Positions 67 to 10,315 of a stretch of DNA of 10,329 nt are shown in pieces. Source of the DNA: Candidatus Eiseniibacteriota bacterium (lineage in GTDB: Bacteria; Arandabacterota; Arandabacteria; JAGLYR01); the NCBI GenBank assembly GCA_023132135.1, contig JAGLYR010000202.1, positions 1-10,329 on the forward strand. The letters run 5' to 3'. The position numbers and the translations under genes were made by a program. Positions within the stretch are counted from its first letter, which is position 1; every line of letters starts with the position of its first letter. The notes below the pieces were generated by a model. The model searched no databases. It saw nothing but the letters and a program-made list of their open reading frames with translations, and was not told the DNA's origin.

Positions 67-585
67 GTGCAGCTCCAGGACAGGATTCGATCCATACCGG
101 ATTTCCCGAAAAAGGGCATCGTCTTCCGGGATATCACCACATTGCTCAAGGACGGACAGGCGTTCGCTCGTGCTGTGGATCTCATGGCTGAGCAGGCCAG
201 GGCGCGGAATGCGGACGTTATCGCCTGTGTCGAGGCCAGGGGATTCCTTTTCGGGAGCGCGGTTGCCAAGGCACTCGGCATAGGTGTCATTCCCATTCGG
301 AAACCCGGAAAGCTCCCCGCACAGATACGCCGCAAGGAATACACCCTGGAATATGGGACCGATGTAATCGAGGTTCACGAGGATGCGATCACGGATGGGC
401 TCAGGGTCTTCGTCGTAGACGATCTTCTGGCCACGGGGGGAACCGCTCTGGCGGCTGCGGGACTCATTGAGGATCTCGGAGGCGTGGTCGCGGGGTTCTC
501 TTTTCTGATTGACCTTGCCTTCCTCGGCGGCGGGAATAGACTCAAGGGTTATGACGTTCACGCGTTGATTGTGTATGAGAGCTAG
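67..585 (+). CDS. apt: Adenine phosphoribosyltransferase
   Basis: This cytosolic purine-salvage enzyme joins adenine to PRPP to give AMP and pyrophosphate. The 172-residue length is normal for bacterial Apt. The PRPP-binding signature VFVVDDLLATGGT spans residues 114-126. Also visible are the N-terminal PDFPKKGIVFRDIT segment (residues 11-24), EARGF (56-60) and the RKPGKLP loop (78-84), all typical of Apt rather than Hpt or Xpt. The start is a GTG at 67, chosen because GGAGG lies at 56-60 with a 6-base spacer and the protein then begins as the family does. tRNA-Arg follows after 4 bases, so the two are probably transcribed together and end at the hairpin at 668-705. Confidence 0.96.
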   Translation: MQLQDRIRSIPDFPKKGIVFRDITTLLKDGQAFARAVDLMAEQARARNADVIACVEARGFLFGSAVAKALGIGVIPIRKPGKLPAQIRRKEYTLEYGTDVIEVHEDAITDGLRVFVVDDLLATGGTALAAAGLIEDLGGVVAGFSFLIDLAFLGGGNRLKGYDVHALIVYES

Positions 586-589
586 AAAC

Positions 590-666
590 GCCCCCGTAGC
601 TCAGGTGGATAGAGCAACGGTTTCCTAAACCGTGTGCCGCGTGTTCGAGTCACGCCGGGGGTGCCA
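590..666 (+). tRNA. tRNA-Arg (anticodon CCU)
   Basis: A full cloverleaf can be drawn. The acceptor stem pairs 590-596 with 656-662, with a G-U pair at the first position. The D stem is GCTC (599-602) with GAGC (612-615). The anticodon stem is 617-621 with 629-633, and its loop (622-628) carries anticodon CCT at 624-626. The variable loop has five bases. The T stem and loop are 639-655 with TTCGAGT at 644-650. The discriminator is G663 and the CCA end (664-666) is encoded. It reads the arginine codon AGG. Placement directly after apt suggests a shared transcript. Confidence 0.96.
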
Positions 667-667
667 G

Positions 668-705
668 AAAACGTGGGCCAGCCACAAGGCTGGCCCTCAC
701 GTTTT
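668..705 (+). terminator. Two-way intrinsic terminator after tRNA-Arg
   Basis: A 16-bp stem is formed by 668-683 and 688-705, with loop ACAA (684-687) and a 2-base bulge at 696-697. The inner part GGCCAGCC/GGCTGGCC is very GC-rich. The outer part is AAAACGTG/CACGTTTT, so a U-run forms in either direction. It should end the apt-tRNA transcript and also the minus-strand MFS gene, whose stop lies about 90 bases away on the other side. Confidence 0.85.
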
Positions 706-708
706 CCC

Positions 709-779
709 CCATTTCCGATTTCCGATTTGCCGACCTTCCCCGATGAACCGCAAATGGTAAATCGTAAATGGTAAATGGT
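709..779. repeat. Heptamer tandem repeats forming an imperfect inverted repeat
   Basis: Left part: two copies of ATTTCCG (711-724) and a variant, ATTTGCCG (725-732). Right part: four tandem heptamers, AAATGGT, AAATCGT, AAATGGT, AAATGGT (752-779). Read in reverse complement from 778, the right part matches the left from 709 at 17 of the first 20 bases, so the whole could fold as a loose hairpin. It lies between the terminator and the end of the MFS gene. No open reading frame or promoter is evident here. It resembles short heptamer repeats scattered in intergenic DNA of many environmental bacteria. Confidence 0.7.
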
Positions 780-792
780 TCTCGTACTCATC

Positions 793-2091
793 CTACTTAC
801 TTCTCGTCACCGTAATTGTCTCCAACCCGTGTGCGTTGGGGCCCGTCTCCGCTCTCCGCAAGAGGTACGCGAAGAAAAACCCGAGGAATCCGGAGACTGA
901 GAAAATCCACATTCCCAAGGAGTATCCTCCGGGGTTTGCGGCGCTCGCTCCCGAGAAATCGTTGGCCCATCCGATCATCAGATTGAAACCGGCGAGGCCG
1001 ATGTTCTGGATCATCGTCATCAGGCCGAAGGCCGTGCCGAGTCGCTTCTCGTCGACAATGTACGCCACTGACGGCCACATCACCGCCGGAACAAGTGAGA
1101 ATGCTATCCCCATCATCGCCATCGGGACCCTCAGGTGAACATCCGTGTAGGCCATCATGAGATAGACAGGAACGAGTATCAGCGAGCCGCACATCATGAA
1201 CAGCGAACGCTTGCCAACGCGATCGACAAGGTAGCCGAAAAGCGGCGTGCAGATCATCGCGAACAGCGTGATCATGGCGGACAGATCTCCACCGTATTCC
1301 CGGGTTGCCCCGTGCGCTTCCTGGAAAAACTTGATGGCAAACGTCTGGAACGGGAAGATCGCCGAGTAGAACGTCACACACAGCAGAACCACCAGCCAGT
1401 AGGATCTACCCATGCCAAACAGCTCGGAGAACGAAATCTTGTCTGTCTCACCGGCCTGTCCCATCGCATAACGCTTGACGGCTCGCTTCTCCATCACCCA
1501 GTAGATGAGTGGCCCTATGATGCAAAGCGTCCCGACTGCAACGGAGATCAAGAGCGGCAACTGCCAGTTCTCAAAGGCTGCCTTTGCCCACGTCGGAGAT
1601 CTCAGGGCCAGGTAGGAGCCCAGGCGGGCGATCGTGAGATTCACGCCAAACGCGAAAGAGAGCTCTTTTCCCTTGAACCACCTGGCAAGCGCCGTCGTAA
1701 CAGCGACGATCAGAGACTCCGCCCCGAGACCGAATACGAGACGGCCTGTCGCCATGATCGCAAGTTTGCCCGTCATGGCCGTGATCGCTGCGCCAGCGAA
1801 ACACAGAATGCCAAAAATCATCGTGGCCCGTCTCACACCGATACGGTCGATAATGATTCCGCCGATCAGAACCATGATGATATTCGGCAGGCTGTAGATC
1901 GCATTCAGCATTCCGATGTTGCTGTCGGAGAACCCAAGCTGGCTCTTCAGAAGGTCCGCTATCGGGCTGATCGTATCGTAGACGTAGTAGTTGCCAAACA
2001 TGGCCAGACTGATGACAACGAGTACAGCCCAGCGATAGGCCCTCGGTGGGGGAGGCCGATCAGGAACCTGCGCGTCCGGTGCTTCGTTCAT
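793..2091 (-). CDS. MFS transporter, MFSD1-like family
   Basis: This 432-residue inner-membrane carrier has about 12 predicted helices, starting near residue 20. Loop motif A is clear at residues 78-88 (G..DRIGVRR), with its second-half copy at 286-295 (GYLVDRVGKR). Several segments recall animal MFSD1, a lysosomal dipeptide carrier: GRLVFGLGAESLIVA (117-130), WFKGKELSFAFG (138-149), ARLGS (155-159), and VMWPSVAYIVDEKRLGTAFG (337-356) with IQNIGLA (361-367). The family call rests on remembered sequence. A dipeptide substrate is inference, and other small organic solutes remain possible. The ATG start at 2091 is preceded by AAGGAG (about 7 bases away). A weak promoter (TTGCTG, 17 bases, TAAAAC; 2130-2158 on minus) lies upstream. 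The gene stands alone, divergent from the next unit. Confidence 0.92.
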   Translation of the reverse strand: MNEAPDAQVPDRPPPPRAYRWAVLVVISLAMFGNYYVYDTISPIADLLKSQLGFSDSNIGMLNAIYSLPNIIMVLIGGIIIDRIGVRRATMIFGILCFAGAAITAMTGKLAIMATGRLVFGLGAESLIVAVTTALARWFKGKELSFAFGVNLTIARLGSYLALRSPTWAKAAFENWQLPLLISVAVGTLCIIGPLIYWVMEKRAVKRYAMGQAGETDKISFSELFGMGRSYWLVVLLCVTFYSAIFPFQTFAIKFFQEAHGATREYGGDLSAMITLFAMICTPLFGYLVDRVGKRSLFMMCGSLILVPVYLMMAYTDVHLRVPMAMMGIAFSLVPAVMWPSVAYIVDEKRLGTAFGLMTMIQNIGLAGFNLMIGWANDFSGASAANPGGYSLGMWIFSVSGFLGFFFAYLLRRAETGPNAHGLETITVTRSK

Positions 2092-2223
2092 CCTTCAACT
2101 CCTTGGGGATTCGGTGAGTCCGATTCGCCGTTTTACGAACTGCCCGACACTACAGCAACGGGTCCACCGCGGCAAGCCAGAAAACAACCTGCCGGCATAG
2201 CCCGCATGGCCGGGGGATGTGGC

Positions 2224-2252
2224 TTGACCTACTCCCGGCGGGCACCTATCAT
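2224..2252 (+). promoter_or_regulatory. Sigma-70 type promoter
   Basis: TTGACC (2224-2229) and TATCAT (2247-2252) are separated by exactly 17 bases. Each differs from consensus (TTGACA, TATAAT) at one or two positions. Transcription should begin near 2259, leaving a leader of about 90 bases before the small membrane-protein gene. It lies in the 260-base gap between the divergent MFS gene and that gene, where I see nothing else coding. It likely drives at least the two genes ending at 3715. Confidence 0.7.
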
Positions 2253-2350
2253 GTTCGCAGATTCACAGAAACCGGACTTCGTCTCTCAGGTTTCGCTATC
2301 CATGGCCGATTCTCTTGTTGTCGGGCGAGCCGACAGATCCGGGTGGGGGA

Positions 2351-2626
2351 GTGAGCGCTCGAGATCAGAAATCCTGGGGGAGTTTGAGTCGGGGGGAGCA
2401 GGTCGCGTTGCTCCTCCGTCTTGGAGTTCTCGCCGCCTTGGCCGTGACCCTTGTCCGGGCGTTTCTGGCATTCATGGATCTTGTTGAAACGCGGGACCTG
2501 CCCCTGCGGCAGCTGTTCTATGTTCCCGCCGCCATGGTGGCCGCTTTCGCCCTCACGGCCCGGTTGATTGTGCAGATCGTGAGGCGCGTGGGGAAAAAGG
2601 GCGACCCACCGGGTCGCCCCGACTAG
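2351..2626 (+). CDS. Small two-helix membrane protein, unknown function
   Basis: No family is recognised. From a GTG at 2351 the product has 91 residues. Two hydrophobic helices are visible, roughly residues 22-45 (LLLRLGVLAALAVTLVRAF) and 55-75 (LFYVPAAMVAAFALTARLIV), with a polar link (DLVETRDLPL) and a basic tail (RRVGKK). The start is uncertain. A TTG at 2315 in frame would add 12 residues but lacks a ribosome site, while the GTG has a G-rich run (GGGTGGGG) just before it. A later TTG at 2409 is also possible. The last codons are supplied by a hairpin repeat (2599-2619), giving the tail GDPPGRPD. The cyclase gene starts 21 bases downstream, so the two probably form one operon. Confidence 0.6.
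   Translation: MSARDQKSWGSLSRGEQVALLLRLGVLAALAVTLVRAFLAFMDLVETRDLPLRQLFYVPAAMVAAFALTARLIVQIVRRVGKKGDPPGRPD
2599..2619. repeat. GGGCGACCC hairpin repeat at the 3' end of a gene
   Basis: GGGCGACCC (2599-2607) and GGGTCGCCC (2611-2619) are exact reverse complements with a 3-base loop, ACC. No T-run follows, so termination is unlikely. It resembles a short hairpin repeat that I recall being scattered through many bacterial genomes. Here it is inside the reading frame of the small membrane protein and supplies its last codons. Confidence 0.75.
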
Positions 2627-2647
2627 ACGCACCAAGGACTTGTTCTC

Positions 2648-3715
2648 ATGGCTTTAGATACGCATATCGACCTGGCGAAAGGACTACCGGCGATCCGGGA
2701 CATGTTCGCGTCGGTCCAGCCGGATGACAACCCGGACAGGATTGCCCGGGCTCTCCTGAGGACCTGCCACGCTCTCTTCTGCGCGTCAGCGGCCGCACTC
2801 GTTGTCGACGGCAAGCCCGTCACCCGGTACACCATGACGCGGGATCAGTACAAGCTTGGCCCCCAGGCAGAGGCTGGATGGACAACGCTTCCGGAACGCC
2901 GGGGATTGGCTGTCCGGGCCATGGACGAAGCCGTGTCTCTGGCCTTCCCGCCGGCGGGCGGAAAGGAGGACGAGGACGCGGACTGGGACGCGGACGGGCT
3001 GCCCGGAGTGTCTCAACCCCACCACATCCTGGCGGCACCCCTGACGGCAACGGCCCCCGCGCCCGGGAGTCTCATACTGCTATTCGAACAGCCCCTTCCA
3101 GATGCGAATGCTGTCCTCGATAACCTGGCGCGCCTGGCCGAGATGGCCCAGTTGGCGTTCCAGCAGCAGCTGACTCTCCGGCGCCTCCGCAAGCTGTCCA
3201 CCACGGACGATCTGACAGGAGCCTACAACTACCGGTATCTTCTCGACAGTCTGGGCCGCGAGATCAAGCGCGCCCATCGATTCAAACAAGTTCTCTCATT
3301 CGTGATGCTGGACGTCGATCATCTGAAGGAGTACAACGACGTCCACGGGCATCTGGCCGGCAGCCGTCTTCTGACCTCCTTTGCACAGATTGTTCAGTCC
3401 CAGCTGCGAGCTGTCGATACATTGGCCAAGTATGGAGGCGATGAATTCGGGGTGATCCTGCCGCAGACCGCAAAGGGCGGCGCAAAGATCGTAGCTGAGC
3501 GAATACGGGCGGCCGTGGAATCTCATCACTTCCCCGGAGAGAAACGCAAGATCACGGCCAGTTTGGGCGTGGCCTCCTTTCCTGAGGATGGCGAGGTGGT
3601 GGAGACGCTGCTGGGCAGAGCGGATGAGGCACTGTACCGGGCCAAGAATCTGGGCCGCAACCGCGTGTGCCTGGTAGGGGAGGAGGTCGCCGGGCGATCC
3701 GGGGAAACCCGTTGA
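2648..3715 (+). CDS. Diguanylate cyclase (GAF-like sensor plus GGDEF)
   Basis: This 355-residue soluble protein makes c-di-GMP from two GTP. Residues about 25-175 look like a GAF-type sensor domain, with an acidic insert at 106-116. Residues about 180-345 are the GGDEF domain. It shows DLTGAYN (188-194), LDVDHLKEYND (221-231, metal and nucleotide contacts), an intact GGDEF signature (263-267) and ITASLGVASFP (302-312). The product-inhibition site RxxD is present at R254-D257, five residues before GGDEF. The usual GDxxL after GH is changed to GSRLL (238-242). No transmembrane segment is seen. The ATG at 2648 has AAGGA (2634-2638) upstream. It probably shares the promoter at 2224-2252 with the small membrane-protein gene. 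The cue sensed by the GAF part is unknown. Confidence 0.93.
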   Translation: MALDTHIDLAKGLPAIRDMFASVQPDDNPDRIARALLRTCHALFCASAAALVVDGKPVTRYTMTRDQYKLGPQAEAGWTTLPERRGLAVRAMDEAVSLAFPPAGGKEDEDADWDADGLPGVSQPHHILAAPLTATAPAPGSLILLFEQPLPDANAVLDNLARLAEMAQLAFQQQLTLRRLRKLSTTDDLTGAYNYRYLLDSLGREIKRAHRFKQVLSFVMLDVDHLKEYNDVHGHLAGSRLLTSFAQIVQSQLRAVDTLAKYGGDEFGVILPQTAKGGAKIVAERIRAAVESHHFPGEKRKITASLGVASFPEDGEVVETLLGRADEALYRAKNLGRNRVCLVGEEVAGRSGETR

Positions 3716-3768
3716 CACGCCCCTCATGTGGCCGTAATCTCGCATGGCGTATTGGCTTGCACCTGTGA

Positions 3769-3789
3769 ACCGGCGCGATGATGGCCGGT
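3769..3789. repeat. Short inverted repeat in the gap before the dehydrogenase gene
   Basis: ACCGGC (3769-3774) and GCCGGT (3784-3789) flank a 9-base loop in the 103-base gap between the cyclase and dehydrogenase genes. No T-run follows, so a terminator is not supported. The gap holds no clear sigma-70 promoter. The dehydrogenase gene may be read through from upstream, or this could be an operator. Confidence 0.35.
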
Positions 3790-3818
3790 GTCCCGTTCCG
3801 GAAATGAGAATCTGATCC

Positions 3819-5123
3819 ATGCCGCTATCTGAACTCAGGCGAAAAATCAAGCGCCGCGAAGCTCGAGTCGGCGTGATTGGAACAGGATATGTCGGTCTCC
3901 CTCTGGCCGTTGAGTTCGCCAGTGCAGGGTTCGACGTTGTTGGAATCGACACGGCCAACTGGAAAGTCGACAGGATCCTGAAGGGAGATTCCTACATCCC
4001 CGATGTGGACAGCGACCGCTTGCAGAAGCTGGTGCGCCAAGGCAAGCTCAGTGCTACGACAGAGTGGGACACAATCGGCGAACTGGACTCCATCAATATC
4101 TGTGTTCCTACGCCCCTCAGGAAGACACAGGATCCGGATGTCTCCCATATCATCGCTGCTGTCAAGGAGATCAGCAAACGCCTGAGACCCGGGCAGCTGA
4201 TTATTCTTGAGAGCACAACCTACCCCGGGACTACGGAAGAGGTCATCCTGCCGAGCCTGGAGAAAACCGGGCTCAAGGTGGGCAAGGATTTCCATTTGGC
4301 CTTCTCGCCTGAGCGCGTGGACCCGGGGAACCGCAAGTTCAAGACGGGCGACATCCCGAAGGTCGTGGGGGGAATCACTCCCGCCTGTACTGAAACCGCC
4401 GTGATGCTCTACCAGTCGTGCCTCAAGGACGTGGTTGCGGTGTCATCGACGAAGGTAGCTGAGATGGTGAAGCTGCTCGAGAACACCTTCCGCAGTGTCA
4501 ACATCGGACTGGTCAATGAGATCTCGCTCATGTGTCACCAGATGAAGATCAATGTGTGGGAGGTCATTGACGCCGCCGCCACAAAACCCTTTGGATTCAT
4601 GCCCTTTTATCCGGGACCCGGACTCGGCGGCCATTGCATTCCCATCGACCCGTTCTACCTCTCCTGGAAAGCCAAACTGATAGGCTTTGAGGCCCGGTTC
4701 ATTGAGCTGGCCGGCAGGATCAACGGCAGTATGCCCTACCACGTCGTCGGAATGATCAGCGATGCCCTGAACGAGGTAGCCAAGAGCTTACGCGGCTCAC
4801 GGATCCTCATCCTGGGTGTCGCCTACAAGAGGGACATTGACGACGTCCGTGAATCCCCCGCGCTGGACATCATTCGAATTCTCCAGTCCAAGGGAGCCGA
4901 GGTCTCATACAGTGATCCATACGTAGCCAATCTCGAAACCAATGGAAGCGTCCTCCAGTCAGCGCCGCTCTCGGCCGAGACGCTGCCGATGTACGACTGC
5001 GTAACCATTGTCACGGACCACTCGAACTTCGATTACAAGAGCGTGGCGAACAACGCCAGGATAGTCGTCGACACCAGGAATGCGCTCTCTGGAATCACGG
5101 GAACTCATATCCACCGACTCTAG
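3819..5123 (+). CDS. wbpA: UDP-N-acetylglucosamine 6-dehydrogenase (WbpA-like)
   Basis: This cytosolic enzyme of the UDP-glucose/GDP-mannose dehydrogenase family oxidises C6 of the sugar in two NAD-dependent steps, here probably UDP-GlcNAc to UDP-GlcNAcA. Of its 434 residues, the N-terminal Rossmann motif is GTGYVG (21-26). ESTTYPGTTE (131-140) and AFSPERVDPG (161-170) follow. EMVKLLENTFR (215-225) carries the conserved Lys218, and GPGLGGHCIPIDPFYLSWKA (266-285) holds the catalytic Cys273. The C-terminal nucleotide domain has GVAYKRDIDDVRESP (333-347). The GLGGHCIPIDPFYLSWKA form fits WbpA better than WecC or TviB as I recall them. The ATG at 3819 lacks a strong ribosome site. The epimerase gene follows 41 bases later. 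A UDP-glucose dehydrogenase is the main alternative. Confidence 0.92.
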   Translation: MPLSELRRKIKRREARVGVIGTGYVGLPLAVEFASAGFDVVGIDTANWKVDRILKGDSYIPDVDSDRLQKLVRQGKLSATTEWDTIGELDSINICVPTPLRKTQDPDVSHIIAAVKEISKRLRPGQLIILESTTYPGTTEEVILPSLEKTGLKVGKDFHLAFSPERVDPGNRKFKTGDIPKVVGGITPACTETAVMLYQSCLKDVVAVSSTKVAEMVKLLENTFRSVNIGLVNEISLMCHQMKINVWEVIDAAATKPFGFMPFYPGPGLGGHCIPIDPFYLSWKAKLIGFEARFIELAGRINGSMPYHVVGMISDALNEVAKSLRGSRILILGVAYKRDIDDVRESPALDIIRILQSKGAEVSYSDPYVANLETNGSVLQSAPLSAETLPMYDCVTIVTDHSNFDYKSVANNARIVVDTRNALSGITGTHIHRL

Positions 5124-5130
5124 TCCACAT

Positions 5131-5152
5131 TCCGGTTTTCGGAAGAACCGGA
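5131..5152 (+). promoter_or_regulatory. Hairpin just before the epimerase ribosome site
   Basis: TCCGGTT (5131-5137) pairs with AACCGGA (5146-5152), and a T-G and a T-A pair can extend it to leave a 4-base loop, CGGA. An alternative pairing, TTCCG (5130-5134) with CGGAA (5140-5144), would exclude the first. It ends one base before the GGGAG ribosome site (5154-5158) of the epimerase. It could tune translation or protect the mRNA. There is no T-run, so a terminator is unlikely. Confidence 0.45.
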
Positions 5153-5164
5153 TGGGAGCGGAAC

Positions 5165-6106
5165 ATGAAACGGTGCCTCATCACGGGAGGTGCAGGATTT
5201 ATCGGTGCTCACCTGGCGGAAGCCCTTGTTAAGCGGGGACAGAGCGTCCGGATCCTGGATGACTTCTCCACGGGCAGGGAGGAGAACCTCTCCGATATCC
5301 GAAAGGACGTGGAGGTAATCCGGGGCGATATTCGGGACAAGGAGACAACGGCCGCCGCCCTCCGGGATATGGAATGGGTTTTCCATCTGGCTGCCGCGGC
5401 TTCGGTTCCCCGATCTGTGAAAGATCCACTGGGCGTCAACGAAACCAACGTGGGGGGCACCCTCAACATTCTCATGCAAGCGCGCGAGGCCGGCGTCGCA
5501 CGCCTGGTTTACGCGGCCTCATCCTCCGCCTACGGTGAGTCGCCCATCTCTCCCAAGCACGAAGGGCTGCCGACCGATCCCCGGTCTCCCTACGCTGCCT
5601 CCAAACTGGCCGGGGAGGACTACTGCCGGGCTTTCTTCCACGTCTACGGTCTAGAAACCGTATGTCTCCGGTATTTCAACGTGTTCGGCCCTCGCCAGGA
5701 TCCGGATTCTCCCTATGCCGCCGTCATTCCTCTCTTCATCCGCGCTCTCCTGGAGGGAGGCTCTCCGCAGGTCTTCGGCGACGGGGAACAGACCAGGGAT
5801 TTCACGTACGTGGCTAATGTCGTGGACGCCAACCTCCGGGCTGCCGAGGCGCCGGCCCCGGACGCGTGCGGACTCGTCATCAACGCAGCGTGCGGTGATG
5901 AATTCAGCCTCAACCAGCTCCTTCAGCAACTCGGACATCTGATTGGTGTGACTCCGAATTCCACGTACCTGTCCCCCCGGCCCGGAGACGTTCGCCACTC
6001 CCGGGCCGACATCACCCGCGCCCGCCAACACCTGGGCTACGAGCCCTCGGTTTCCTTCGAGGAAGGTCTTAAGCTGACCGTCGATTGGCATCTCGCACAC
6101 GTGTAG
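5165..6106 (+). CDS. NAD-dependent UDP-sugar 4-epimerase (WbpP/GalE-like)
   Basis: This 313-residue extended short-chain dehydrogenase shows the NAD motif GGAGFIG (8-14), LDDFSTG (31-37), GDIRD (54-58), HLAAAASVP (74-82) and the catalytic SSSAYG (119-124) with Y143xxxK147 (SPYAASK). YFNVFGPRQDP (170-180), SPYAAVIP (182-189) and RPGDVRHS (272-279) are typical of UDP-GlcNAc or UDP-Glc 4-epimerases of the WbpP/TviC group. It would interconvert gluco- and galacto-forms, so with the dehydrogenase upstream a UDP-GalNAcA product is plausible. The ATG at 5165 has GGGAG at 5154-5158, a 6-base spacer. The two genes form a pair 41 bases apart, and a candidate terminator overlaps the stop codon. UDP-glucuronate-modifying enzymes of this fold are a less likely alternative. 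Confidence 0.9.
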   Translation: MKRCLITGGAGFIGAHLAEALVKRGQSVRILDDFSTGREENLSDIRKDVEVIRGDIRDKETTAAALRDMEWVFHLAAAASVPRSVKDPLGVNETNVGGTLNILMQAREAGVARLVYAASSSAYGESPISPKHEGLPTDPRSPYAASKLAGEDYCRAFFHVYGLETVCLRYFNVFGPRQDPDSPYAAVIPLFIRALLEGGSPQVFGDGEQTRDFTYVANVVDANLRAAEAPAPDACGLVINAACGDEFSLNQLLQQLGHLIGVTPNSTYLSPRPGDVRHSRADITRARQHLGYEPSVSFEEGLKLTVDWHLAHV

Positions 6107-6125
6107 CCTCCCATTGGGGCTTTTT
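6105..6125 (+). terminator. Candidate intrinsic terminator after the epimerase gene
   Basis: AGCC (6105-6108) and CC (6110-6111) pair with GG (6116-6117) and GGCT (6118-6121), with T6109 bulged and loop CATT. The run of five T at 6121-6125 follows directly. The stem is short, so termination may be partial. It begins inside the epimerase stop codon and separates the sugar genes from the kinase-regulator genes. Confidence 0.5.
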
Positions 6126-6197
6126 CCTCAAGCGCTCCACCTCATGAACCGACAACAGGTTGGAGGCAATTGGGCCAAATAGCACACCGGAGATGAA

Positions 6198-7295
6198 ATG
6201 CCAACCACCGCCGTCGACACGCAAGCCGCCACCCTGACCCGGATCGCATGTTTCCTGGCAGACCGCATTCCTGACCCCGTGTTGTTCTGCGACCGCGCAG
6301 GAACTGTCCTGGCAGCCAACGCCGCGCTGGAGGACGAAACAGGCCGCTCGCGCAGCGACTTGGTTGGGCAACCCCTGACGGGCATCTTCGAGGGCGAAGC
6401 ATTCTCGTCCTGGCCCGGGAATGCTGAAACCAGTGAGGAAGGGTGGACTGTCGAAACAAGAGTACGTACGCCCGAGGGCCATAGAACTCGAACTGTCCGG
6501 GCAGTTGCCCTGCGGTGGGGGAGCGAACCGGCCTACGCATTCTGCCTGATCTTCGAAGAAGACATGCATCGGTCTCCCGCCGTTGCCCACAGAATCTCCG
6601 ACGGCTGCAGCGCCGTCGGCAGATACGCCTCAATCCTTGCCCACGATCTCCGAAACCCGCTAACCGGGATTTCCACCGGCATTCAGTATCTCGGACATGC
6701 TCTGAAGGGAAATCCTCAACACACCGAGACCATCGGGATAATCCAGGCCGAAGTGAACAACCTGAACGAATGCATCGAGCGCTTGGCCCAGGTTGCTCAA
6801 ACTACGCCGGAGTTCGAACCATCCACACTCAATCTTGCCGTTGCCCTTCGGGAGATTCTGAGCACGTGGCAGTCCGAAATCGCCCGGAGGAACGTTCCCG
6901 TGTCAGTGAAAGTGGACCCGCTGCTTCCGGCTATCCCGGGAGACGCGAGCCGGATGACGCGTGCGCTGTCCGCTATTTTCGGACGGGCCCTGGGACTCGC
7001 AAGGGAAGGGAGTCCCCTCCAGGTCCGGCTTGAGCTCCGCTCGACAGCATCCCACCGTCCGCCGGGCGCAGTCCCATCCCAATGGGCAGTGGTTGAGATC
7101 AGCGGCACCAGCAGCCATTCTGATCCGAGGGAGGATCTGCAGACCCTGAATCCATCTTCCCCCGACTGGGGGGCGCAGGCGGATTTCTATCTCGCCGCCG
7201 GGATTGTCGAAGCACACAAGGGCTACTTTGAACTTGCCGCAGGCCCGGAGAACCGGATGCGTTTCTCGGTTGTACTTCCCATCCACCATTCATAA
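6198..7295 (+). CDS. PAS sensor histidine kinase with degenerate ATP-binding domain
   Basis: This 365-residue soluble protein has a PAS-like domain at about 17-120 (IPDPVLFCDRAGTVLAANAA). A HisKA dimerisation domain at about 135-205 has an intact H box, LAHDLRNPLTG, with phospho-acceptor His149. The catalytic domain (about 210-365) keeps its outline, including GDASRMTRAL (248-257), IVEAH (336-340) and a final VVLPI. Its key motifs are lost. The N-box Asn positions read AI and RA (259-264), the G1 Asp is Gly303 in EISGTSS, and G2 reads GAQADF (325-330) instead of GTGLGL. It may therefore not bind ATP and could act as a phosphatase or scaffold for the regulator downstream. GGAG (6189-6192) sits 5 bases before the ATG. 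Its stop overlaps the ribosome site of the regulator gene. Confidence 0.88.
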   Translation: MPTTAVDTQAATLTRIACFLADRIPDPVLFCDRAGTVLAANAALEDETGRSRSDLVGQPLTGIFEGEAFSSWPGNAETSEEGWTVETRVRTPEGHRTRTVRAVALRWGSEPAYAFCLIFEEDMHRSPAVAHRISDGCSAVGRYASILAHDLRNPLTGISTGIQYLGHALKGNPQHTETIGIIQAEVNNLNECIERLAQVAQTTPEFEPSTLNLAVALREILSTWQSEIARRNVPVSVKVDPLLPAIPGDASRMTRALSAIFGRALGLAREGSPLQVRLELRSTASHRPPGAVPSQWAVVEISGTSSHSDPREDLQTLNPSSPDWGAQADFYLAAGIVEAHKGYFELAAGPENRMRFSVVLPIHHS

Positions 7296-7306
7296 GGAGC
7301 AGGACC

Positions 7307-8740
7307 ATGCAAGCCAGCATCCTCATCGTCGATGATCAGGATTCGATTCGGCGCTTCCTGGCGCAGACCCTGGAAGATGAGGATTTCGAAGTCCGGACGG
7401 CAGCGCTCGGTGAAAGGGCTCTCGAGATCTGCGAGCAGGTTCTGCCCGACATCGTGCTGCTGGATTTGAAGCTGCCGGACATGGATGGGATCGCAGTCCT
7501 CGAAGAAATCAAGAAAACCGCGCAGGAGATCATCGTGATCATGATTACGGCTCACGGCGACATCAGGTCCGCCGTCGAGGCCATGAGACTGGGGGCTTTC
7601 GACTACGTCAGCAAGCCATTGAACGTAGATCAGCTTATCGTCACAATCCACAAAGCCATGGATTCACACCGCCTCTGGATGGAGCTGTCGCACTGGCGGC
7701 GGCAGAACCAGAAGCGCGCCGATGCCGATCTCATCATCGGCGAGAGTGACATAATGCGCCAGGTGATGTCCATGACGGAGCAGGTGGCGCGGTCCAACAG
7801 CACCAGCGTTCTCATTGAAGGCGAGAGCGGAACCGGCAAGGAGCTCGTTGCCCACGCAATCCACAACCTGAGCCCGCGTCGGAACGGCCCCTTCATGGAC
7901 CTCAACTGTGCCTCTCTTCCGAACGAGCTGCTGGAATCGGAGCTGTTCGGTCACGAGAGGGGGGCATTCACAGACGCCAAGGCGATGAAGAAGGGGCTCC
8001 TGGAGCTGACGGACGGTGGAACGCTGTTCCTGGATGAAGTCGGGGAGATGCCTCTCTCGATACAGGCGAAGCTGCTCCGTGTCCTGGAGCGAATGATCTT
8101 CAAGAGGATCGGTGGGACCAAAGACATCCGCGTCGATGTCCGGATCATCTCTGCCACCAACCGCGATCTCAATCTGGCGCTGGAGCAGGGACTCTTCCGT
8201 GAGGACCTCTACTATCGCCTCAAGGTGGTTCCCATCCTCATACCTCCTCTGAGGGAGAGGGGGGAGGACGCGCTGATCCTGGGCAAGCATTTCATGCACG
8301 AGTTCAACAGCACCTTTGGCAAGTCCTTCGCGGGATTTGCTCCCGAAGCTGAGGCTCTGCTCCTGCAGTACTCCTGGCCCGGCAACGTGCGCGAGCTCAG
8401 AAACACACTCGAACGTGCGATTCTCCTCGGAGAGGGTGATCTGCTCACTGCCCAGGGCCTGGGTATCAGACCCTCCCAGACCGCGCGCCATTCATCTCTC
8501 CTGGAACAGCTCGAACAGGCCACTTGCGGGCAGTTCCCTGAATCCGGCTTCGATTTCGAAGCGCTTCTTAATAAAGTCGAGAAGGAGATCATACTCCAGG
8601 CATCCAACCAGACCGCGTGGAACCAGACCAGAACGTCCTTGCTCCTCGGCATGAATCGTGATAAGCTCCGCTACCGGATGAAGCTTCACGACATCCGCAA
8701 GACCAAGCGCGGAGCCGACCATGTGCCCATCCCGTCCTAG
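7307..8740 (+). CDS. NtrC-family sigma-54-dependent response regulator
   Basis: This 477-residue regulator activates sigma-54 RNA polymerase. The receiver domain (1-118) has acidic pocket D9/D10, phospho-acceptor D53, T81 and K103, all intact. The AAA+ domain (about 142-375) has Walker A GESGTGKE (172-179), Walker B GGTLFLDE (237-244), arginine-finger region FREDLYYRL (297-305) and sensor II WPGNVREL (357-364). The sigma-54 contact loop reads GAFTDA (219-224) where GAFTGA is canonical. I recall this variant in other regulators, so the protein may still be active. A Fis-type helix-turn-helix ends it (about 418-464, LLLGMNRDKLRYRM). AAGGAG (7294-7299) overlaps the kinase stop, indicating coupled translation. 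By eye I found no convincing -24/-12 promoter in the window. Targets are unknown. Confidence 0.95.
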   Translation: MQASILIVDDQDSIRRFLAQTLEDEDFEVRTAALGERALEICEQVLPDIVLLDLKLPDMDGIAVLEEIKKTAQEIIVIMITAHGDIRSAVEAMRLGAFDYVSKPLNVDQLIVTIHKAMDSHRLWMELSHWRRQNQKRADADLIIGESDIMRQVMSMTEQVARSNSTSVLIEGESGTGKELVAHAIHNLSPRRNGPFMDLNCASLPNELLESELFGHERGAFTDAKAMKKGLLELTDGGTLFLDEVGEMPLSIQAKLLRVLERMIFKRIGGTKDIRVDVRIISATNRDLNLALEQGLFREDLYYRLKVVPILIPPLRERGEDALILGKHFMHEFNSTFGKSFAGFAPEAEALLLQYSWPGNVRELRNTLERAILLGEGDLLTAQGLGIRPSQTARHSSLLEQLEQATCGQFPESGFDFEALLNKVEKEIILQASNQTAWNQTRTSLLLGMNRDKLRYRMKLHDIRKTKRGADHVPIPS

Positions 8741-9278
8741 AGTTCTCCTTCGGACCACGCTGTTTGTGGCCCTGTCACTCCTTTGCGCATGCGCCCATTA
8801 CTCAACCTCTGCCAGCGGCCGCAGCTCCCTGAAGTCCATCGCCATTCCTCTTTTCAAGAACAACACTCTCGAGCACGGCCTTGGCGAAACCGTCACCAGT
8901 GCCCTTTCTGCGGCCTTCGTCGCCGATAACCATCTCGATGTCGTCGCCGAACCGGAGTCAGAGTCCATCCTCTGGGGCACAATCGTCGAGTACCGCCGTT
9001 TCCCGTTCACATTCGATTCTCAGGGCGCCGTCATTGAGTACAAGATCGAGATCGTTGTCAGTGTTGAGTACGAGGACCGGAAACATTCCAGGACGCTCTG
9101 GGCCGACGAAGATCTCCGCGCCTGGGCCAGTTACACGCCCGCCACATCTGCGTCTGCCGACGAACCGGATCAGTCCGTCGAGGAGAGCACAATTGCTGCT
9201 ACCGAGGAGGAGGCGCTTCTTGCAGCCATTGGGAAGCTGGGGCGGGAGCTGGTAGCCAAGACCTTGGGTGGGTGGTAG
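8721..9278 (+). CDS. lptE: LptE-like outer-membrane lipoprotein
   Basis: LptE is a lipoprotein that plugs the LptD barrel, through which lipopolysaccharide reaches the outer leaflet of the outer membrane. This 185-residue protein has an N-terminal signal peptide (residues 1-23, hydrophobic core LLRTTLFVALSLL) ending in lipobox LCAC with Cys24 as the lipidated residue. The mature part follows the family pattern: SLKSIAIPLFKNNTLEHGL (36-54), then SALSAAFVADNHLDVV (60-75), then ILWGTIVEYRRFPF (83-96) and a beta-rich stretch. A low-complexity Ala/Ser/Glu segment lies at 140-163. The ATG at 8721 overlaps the regulator gene by 20 bases, and GGAG (8711-8714) precedes it by 6. The assignment rests on family pattern, so a different small outer-membrane lipoprotein is possible. 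Confidence 0.75.
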   Translation: MCPSRPRVLLRTTLFVALSLLCACAHYSTSASGRSSLKSIAIPLFKNNTLEHGLGETVTSALSAAFVADNHLDVVAEPESESILWGTIVEYRRFPFTFDSQGAVIEYKIEIVVSVEYEDRKHSRTLWADEDLRAWASYTPATSASADEPDQSVEESTIAATEEEALLAAIGKLGRELVAKTLGGW

Positions 9279-9304
9279 AGGGCGGACAAGATGCAGCGTG
9301 TCTA

Positions 9305-9332
9305 AGTTGACATAATACCTATTATGCGCACT
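9305..9332 (-). other. dif: Candidate dif site (XerC/XerD recombination site)
   Basis: Read on the minus strand, the 28 bases are AGTGCGCATAA (XerC arm), TAGGTA (6-bp centre) and TTATGTCAACT (XerD arm). The E. coli site as I recall it has arms GGTGCGCATAA and TTATGTTAAAT, so 10 of 11 and 9 of 11 bases agree. The B. subtilis XerD arm TTATGTAAACT agrees at 10 of 11. XerC and XerD resolve chromosome dimers at dif in the replication terminus, with FtsK. The site lies between the converging lptE-like gene and the TPR gene, which fits a terminus. Plasmid or phage dif-like sites look similar, but no integrase or element ends are visible. Confidence 0.8.
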
Positions 9333-9388
9333 TGCGGCTCCTGCTTAATGTCCTCCCGAAGAGTCTTCTCACACATACTGTTCCCGAA

Positions 9389-10078
9389 TCAGGGTTCCGT
9401 TCGTCCGAGAACCTTCGCTCTGGCGACCAACCGCTCACCCTCCCGACGCCACTGGTCGTCGTCTCCAAATTCCTCCACGATCCGTCGACCAAGACGCTCA
9501 GATGATGCGTAGTCGGCAGCGAGCTCGTAGCAACGCGCGGATTGCGCGAGCATACCCGGGATACGGATCTCATCCGGCGCGTCCTCTGCAAGACGCTCGT
9601 AGTGCTCCGCTGCGCGCCCGAACTCAGACTGAGCCTCGTAGCAATTGCCAATGCCATCGCGCACGGCGAATCGATGCAGCGGGTCTCGGAGATGCTTCTG
9701 CTCCAGCTTCTGGAAAAGCTCGAGTGCTCGCTGATGATTCCCGCTGAGGAACTGCGCTGTGGCGCAGTGATACATGATGTCTTCGCCGAGAGCCCCGCCC
9801 GGATGCTTCTCCATAAGGGATTCCAGCATGAGAGCGCCTCGCTCATGGTTCATGGTCTGCGACATCATAAGAGCCTCGGACAGCTGCGCCTGAACCTGGT
9901 CGCGCGCGCGCGTTCTCGATCTTGCAACAAGGCTGGAAACAGCGACGATGAGGACTATGGCTACAGCGATAGCCAAAAGCCTCGTTGTGTGGCGCAGAAT
10001 GTAGTCGCGCGCGGCCACGAAAGTTGCTGTCAGCTTGTCCTCTTCCTCAATACCGGCTCTCTTCCGCAAATCTGCCAA
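9389..10078 (-). CDS. Membrane-anchored tetratricopeptide-repeat protein
   Basis: From a TTG at 10078 the product is 229 residues. One transmembrane helix lies at about 34-52 (LLAIAVAIVLIVAVSSLVA), after a short charged N-terminus (ADLRKRAGIEEEDK). The large C-terminal part would then face the periplasm. Helix pairs matching TPR repeats appear at about 98-130 (YHCATAQFLSGNHQRALELF), 140-165 (GIGNCYEAQSEFGRAAEHYE) and 175-205 (LAQSARCYELAADYASSERL). The layout recalls YfgM or periplasmic TPR adaptors, so a role in envelope protein assembly is only inference. The start is uncertain. An in-frame ATG at 10174 would add 32 residues, but those are not family-like and lie upstream of a possible promoter. 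The TTG has a GGGGGG run (10085-10090) 6 bases ahead. Confidence 0.85.
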   Translation of the reverse strand: MADLRKRAGIEEEDKLTATFVAARDYILRHTTRLLAIAVAIVLIVAVSSLVARSRTRARDQVQAQLSEALMMSQTMNHERGALMLESLMEKHPGGALGEDIMYHCATAQFLSGNHQRALELFQKLEQKHLRDPLHRFAVRDGIGNCYEAQSEFGRAAEHYERLAEDAPDEIRIPGMLAQSARCYELAADYASSERLGRRIVEEFGDDDQWRREGERLVARAKVLGRTEP

Positions 10079-10123
10079 CGAACACCCCCCATTTTGAACG
10101 TTCTGCCTAGACAACCGGGTTAC

Positions 10124-10151
10124 GTTATCACACCTTCTCGGTGCCGCGCAA
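10124..10151 (-). promoter_or_regulatory. Possible promoter of the TPR gene
   Basis: On the minus strand TTGCGC (10151-10146) and GATAAC (10129-10124) are 16 bases apart, with a TG extended -10 element just ahead of GATAAC. Transcription would start near 10117, about 40 bases before the TTG start, which favours TTG 10078 over ATG 10174. Match to consensus is only moderate. Confidence 0.35.
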
Positions 10152-10181
10152 GTACATTTCAAGGAGAAGGGCATTAGAACA

Positions 10182-10202
10182 AGTCCCTAGTCCGTAGTCC
10201 CT
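10182..10202. repeat. Heptamer tandem repeat (AGTCCCT, three copies)
   Basis: AGTCCCT, AGTCCGT and AGTCCCT follow one another without gaps. The 7-base period matches the AAATGGT heptamers at 752-779, although the units differ. The surrounding 150 bases to the end of the window have no open reading frame I would support. Confidence 0.7.
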
Positions 10203-10288
10203 ACCCTGCTTCATGCACAAGTTTTCCCGCCTGATACTGCAACTCTGTGGTCTGCATGTGGTTGGTACGCGAAAGCGGTAGTGTGGTT

Positions 10289-10315
10289 GTCCTTCGACGG
10301 GCTCAGGACGAACGG
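10289..10315. repeat. Dispersed palindromic repeat, GTCCTTCGAC type
   Basis: GTCCT (10289-10293) and AGGAC (10305-10309) are reverse complements around TCGACGGGCTC, followed by GAACGG. This resembles a short palindromic repeat that I recall being common in intergenic DNA of many environmental bacteria. The left outer arm (GTGGTT before GTCCT) matches the expected complement of GAACGG only partly, so this copy is decayed or partial. Confidence 0.6.

Follow-up and report, generated by a model that had tools for sequence, protein, structure and literature searches.

A chromosomal dif-like XerC/XerD site marking the terminus region in a sparsely sampled bacterial phylum

The 28-bp element at positions 9305-9332 of the window, by which we mean the whole stretch of 10,329 nucleotides analysed here (the complete contig C116 of a 3.40-Mb genome in 345 contigs, 96% complete), is almost certainly a chromosomal dif site working like that of E. 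coli with XerC, XerD and FtsK, dif being the place at which copies of a circular bacterial chromosome that have become joined by accident are separated by two recombinases. Its designation as a dif-like XerC/XerD site, made in an earlier note, was well supported by its sequence, its uniqueness, the occurrence of XerC, XerD and the FtsK gamma domain, and its conserved place and orientation in relatives. The site is an ordinary component of a bacterial genome, a known kind of element, here in a sparsely sampled phylum. Its parts and surroundings are as follows.

9305-9332, minus strand: dif site, 28 bp, AGTGCGCATAATAGGTATTATGTCAACT, unique in the genome and at the same place in the related genomes G001 and G006
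9322-9332, minus strand: XerC arm AGTGCGCATAA, one difference from E. coli GGTGCGCATAA
9316-9321, minus strand: central region TAGGTA, 6 bp
9305-9315, minus strand: XerD arm TTATGTCAACT, two differences from E. coli TTATGTTAAAT
9279-9388, no strand: 110-bp gap containing dif, bounded by the stop codons of two convergent genes
8721-9278, plus strand: lptE (LPS assembly; PF04390, 2.9e-11), which closes the conserved gene group on the left side of dif and keeps its synteny in G001 and G006
67-8740, plus strand: apt, GGDEF, ugd, epimerase, histidine kinase and sigma-54 response regulator genes, a conserved group running towards dif, with an MFS gene on the minus strand within it
9389-10174, minus strand: TPR gene on the right, directed at dif; G001, G006, G004 and G002 have its homologue on that side of dif too

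On the minus strand the 28-mer reads AGTGCGCATAA-TAGGTA-TTATGTCAACT, exactly the arms and centre that had been described, and thereby shows the dif layout of 11-bp XerC and XerD arms, a 6-bp centre and a conserved XerD arm. When compared with the dif of E. coli K12 as printed by Carnoy and Roten (GGTGCGCATAATGTATATTATGTTAAAT; PMC2731167), the XerC arm was identical at 10/11 positions and the XerD arm at 9/11, in agreement with the one and two mismatches to E. coli given in the earlier note. The central hexamer differs (TAGGTA in the window, TGTATA in E. coli), as does the end of the XerD arm, TCAACT, which is closer to the TNAACT common in the phylum. The length of 28 bp, 11-6-11 layout, intergenic position, A+T-richness and single copy are shared with dif of E. 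coli and other proteobacteria, whereas the host belongs to a different, sparsely sampled phylum. The G/C content of the element was 10/28 (0.36), as compared with approximately 0.59 for the window.

The element is non-coding, lying in the gap between lptE (plus strand) and the TPR gene (minus strand), which converge on it as the earlier note had stated. Left of lptE the order is apt, MFS (opposite strand), a short ORF, GGDEF, ugd, epimerase, histidine kinase and sigma-54 response regulator; eight of the nine likely genes left of dif run rightward and the TPR gene on the right runs leftward, so that the gene directions noted previously were also confirmed.

In a search of the entire genome allowing up to three mismatches, which had been proposed as a check, the 28-mer at 9305-9332 was the sole match, and the reversed pattern gave none. 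The 28-mer pattern likewise had no match in 200 dinucleotide-preserving shuffles of the window. A stringent pattern search of 193 genomes detected dif-like sites in 16, with a single site in all but one, while its reversed control had no match among the 193. Matches to a looser pattern with three mismatches were disregarded, their frequency being that of the reversed control. The genome G027, from another phylum, had a dif-like site on each of three contigs (L009, L021 and L022; around 1501-1528), the outer arms differing from site to site; no integrase or phage family was found among the scanned neighbouring proteins, and the three could reflect multiple replicons, insertions that have decayed or an assembly of mixed origin.

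Within a sample of eight genomes of the same phylum, where sites were counted at up to two mismatches to the looser pattern, the following dif sites were identified.

G001 and G004: ATGTCGCATAATAAACATTATGTAAACT
G005: ACGTCGCATAATGTACATTATGTAAACT
G002: ACTGCGCATAATAATAGTTATGTTAACC
G006: ACTACGCATAATCTATATTATGTTTACT

G007 yielded one further match of this kind, at a contig end. The phylum-level dif pattern is NNNNCGCATAA-N6-TTATGTNAACT, from which G002 and G006 depart slightly. All of the sites listed have the inner arms CGCATAA/TTATGT of the window site, and TTATG with most of the rest of the XerD arm is conserved across five same-phylum sites, whereas the outer XerC arm varies between the same-class sites and the window (ATGT, ACGT, ACTG or ACTA before CGCATAA). 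Two of these genomes, G001 and G006, come from another family of the class that includes the window's genome. In both, dif lies between the apt-GGDEF-ugd-epimerase-histidine kinase-response regulator-lptE group and the TPR gene, each of which runs towards it, and has the orientation seen in the window; the TPR side is also present in G002 and G004. Unlike in the window, where dif directly follows lptE, three genes separate the two in G001, which we take, from inspection of their translations, to be leuS, trxB and a glycosyltransferase-like gene.

The three proteins that the earlier note had proposed to look for were all found in the genome, as in the dif system of E. coli and other proteobacteria: XerD (353.0 bits against an NCBIfam cut-off of 329.6) and XerC (342.3 bits against 335.15), which together with two integrase-like proteins make up its four tyrosine recombinases, and an FtsK having alpha, motor and gamma domains. 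In E. coli, the gamma domain of FtsK reads KOPS and activates XerD (PMC5052618, PMC2680272). Binding of XerC and XerD, recombination and FtsK control at the window dif are inferred from E. coli. By that analogy, XerC would bind AGTGCGCATAA and XerD TTATGTCAACT; septal FtsK would pump the DNA along KOPS towards dif, its gamma domain would switch on XerD, and the two recombinases would exchange strands within the 6-bp centre, resolving chromosome dimers. KOPS were searched as GGGNAGGG octamers, and three KOPS-like octamers in the window point towards dif.

5272-5279, plus strand: GGGCAGGG
7003-7010, plus strand: GGGAAGGG
10199-10206, minus strand: GGGTAGGG

The plus:minus counts left and right of dif were 33:13 and 1:4 in G001, 6:2 and 0:5 in G006, and 2:0 and 0:1 in the window, the octamers in G001 and G006 also being directed at dif from both sides. 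Since KOPS follow GC skew in the genome's own contigs (37 leading, 13 lagging), this evidence is not fully independent of skew.

Two other origins for the 28-mer were weighed. A chance resemblance to the dif arms might be imagined from the hits that looser patterns with three mismatches do yield in controls, but the empty shuffles of the window, the empty reversed control among the 193 genomes at the stringent setting and, above all, the dif sites of relatives at the same position and in the same orientation already contradict this reading, whose probability we consider negligible. It is also very improbable, if less extremely so, that the element is not a chromosomal dif but the Xer site of a plasmid or a remnant attachment site of an XerCD-exploiting mobile element; such sites have the same arms, and half of the genome's tyrosine recombinases are integrase-like, but the 28-mer is single copy, it is flanked by housekeeping genes (apt, lptE) whose order recurs in a second family of the class, the window contains neither phage nor plasmid genes, and no exact-arm match occurred among viral contigs.

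The claim that dif marks a probable replication terminus was supported in its broader form. In G001 (contig C120, 356,541 bp) dif lies at 301,616 and the cumulative GC-skew maximum at 302,480, 0.9 kb apart, and in G006 (contig C97, 43,902 bp) the positions are 25,081 and 25,839, 0.8 kb apart; the orthologous dif of both relatives, with neighbours and orientation matching those in the window, is thus located at the skew maximum, so that the corresponding site is at the terminus there. On large contigs of two unrelated genomes, dif was 3.9 kb from the skew maximum in G044, a clear case, and G055, with hardly any skew, was uninformative. The narrower claim of a meeting of forks, with a switch of skew sign, at 9305 was not borne out in the window itself: no switch occurred near 9300 within the 10-kb contig, skew being negative both left (-0.022) and right (-0.073, over only 997 bp) of dif, and cumulative skew was highest at 677 and had a smaller peak near 4500, but none at 9305. 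A genome-wide curve could not be drawn from the 345-contig assembly, and skew is noisy over 10 kb; local noise may be an alternative cause of the missing switch. We therefore read dif as marking the terminus region, not the exact point at which forks meet.

A narrower reading, compatible with a real dif, places that point some kilobases to its left and makes dif a loose marker of the region; we regard this as a serious possibility, though somewhat short of probable. It accords with the negative skew on both sides and the leftward cumulative peaks, and with ugd, epimerase, histidine kinase and lptE, whose third-position skew resembles that of the genome's lagging-strand genes. Displacement of dif by several kilobases from the skew maximum is moreover usual, the median distance in proteobacteria being 7,277 bp (PMC2731167), and Kono et al. 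argue that replication does not end strictly at dif (PMC3025954). Against it, gene direction and the full set of three KOPS point to dif from either side, the skew of a 10-kb contig is noisy, and part of the right arm in G001 likewise has the opposite skew sign. Several homologues of the lagging-like genes, on the leading side in G001, are likewise low in third-position skew. That dif has kept its flanking genes from family to family within the phylum, with the fork-meeting point drifting off dif in this lineage, seems rather unlikely to us; if true, the skew switch would be uncoupled from dif-guided FtsK pumping in this genome.

As a marker of the terminus region, the dif site provides an anchor in a poorly sampled bacterial phylum, and its conserved neighbourhood is usable for ordering fragmented assemblies; the understanding of Xer recombination is unchanged by it. 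Gene-calling pipelines do omit such sites, as the earlier note remarked, though dif prediction is published for 641 organisms in 16 phyla (PMC3025954).

Beyond the window, the G001 gene past apt had no match in the window's genome (G000), and gave no leftward extension. On the right, contig C206 is plausibly the next one: it carries, at 126-2570 (L127), a homologue of a PDZ-GAF-SpoIIE phosphatase, whose relative in G001 is divergent from the TPR gene adjacent to dif. The skew of C206 (-0.049) would fit negative skew along the right arm, given the inferred join. At 10292-10315, by the contig end, lies an interspersed repeat, CTTCGACGGGCTCAGGACGAACGG, with 28 copies in the genome (up to three mismatches), where its reversed control had no hit; it may have broken the assembly there. 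Several of its copies form inverted pairs approximately 30 bp apart (e.g., in C11, C117 and C214), like REP/BIME elements.
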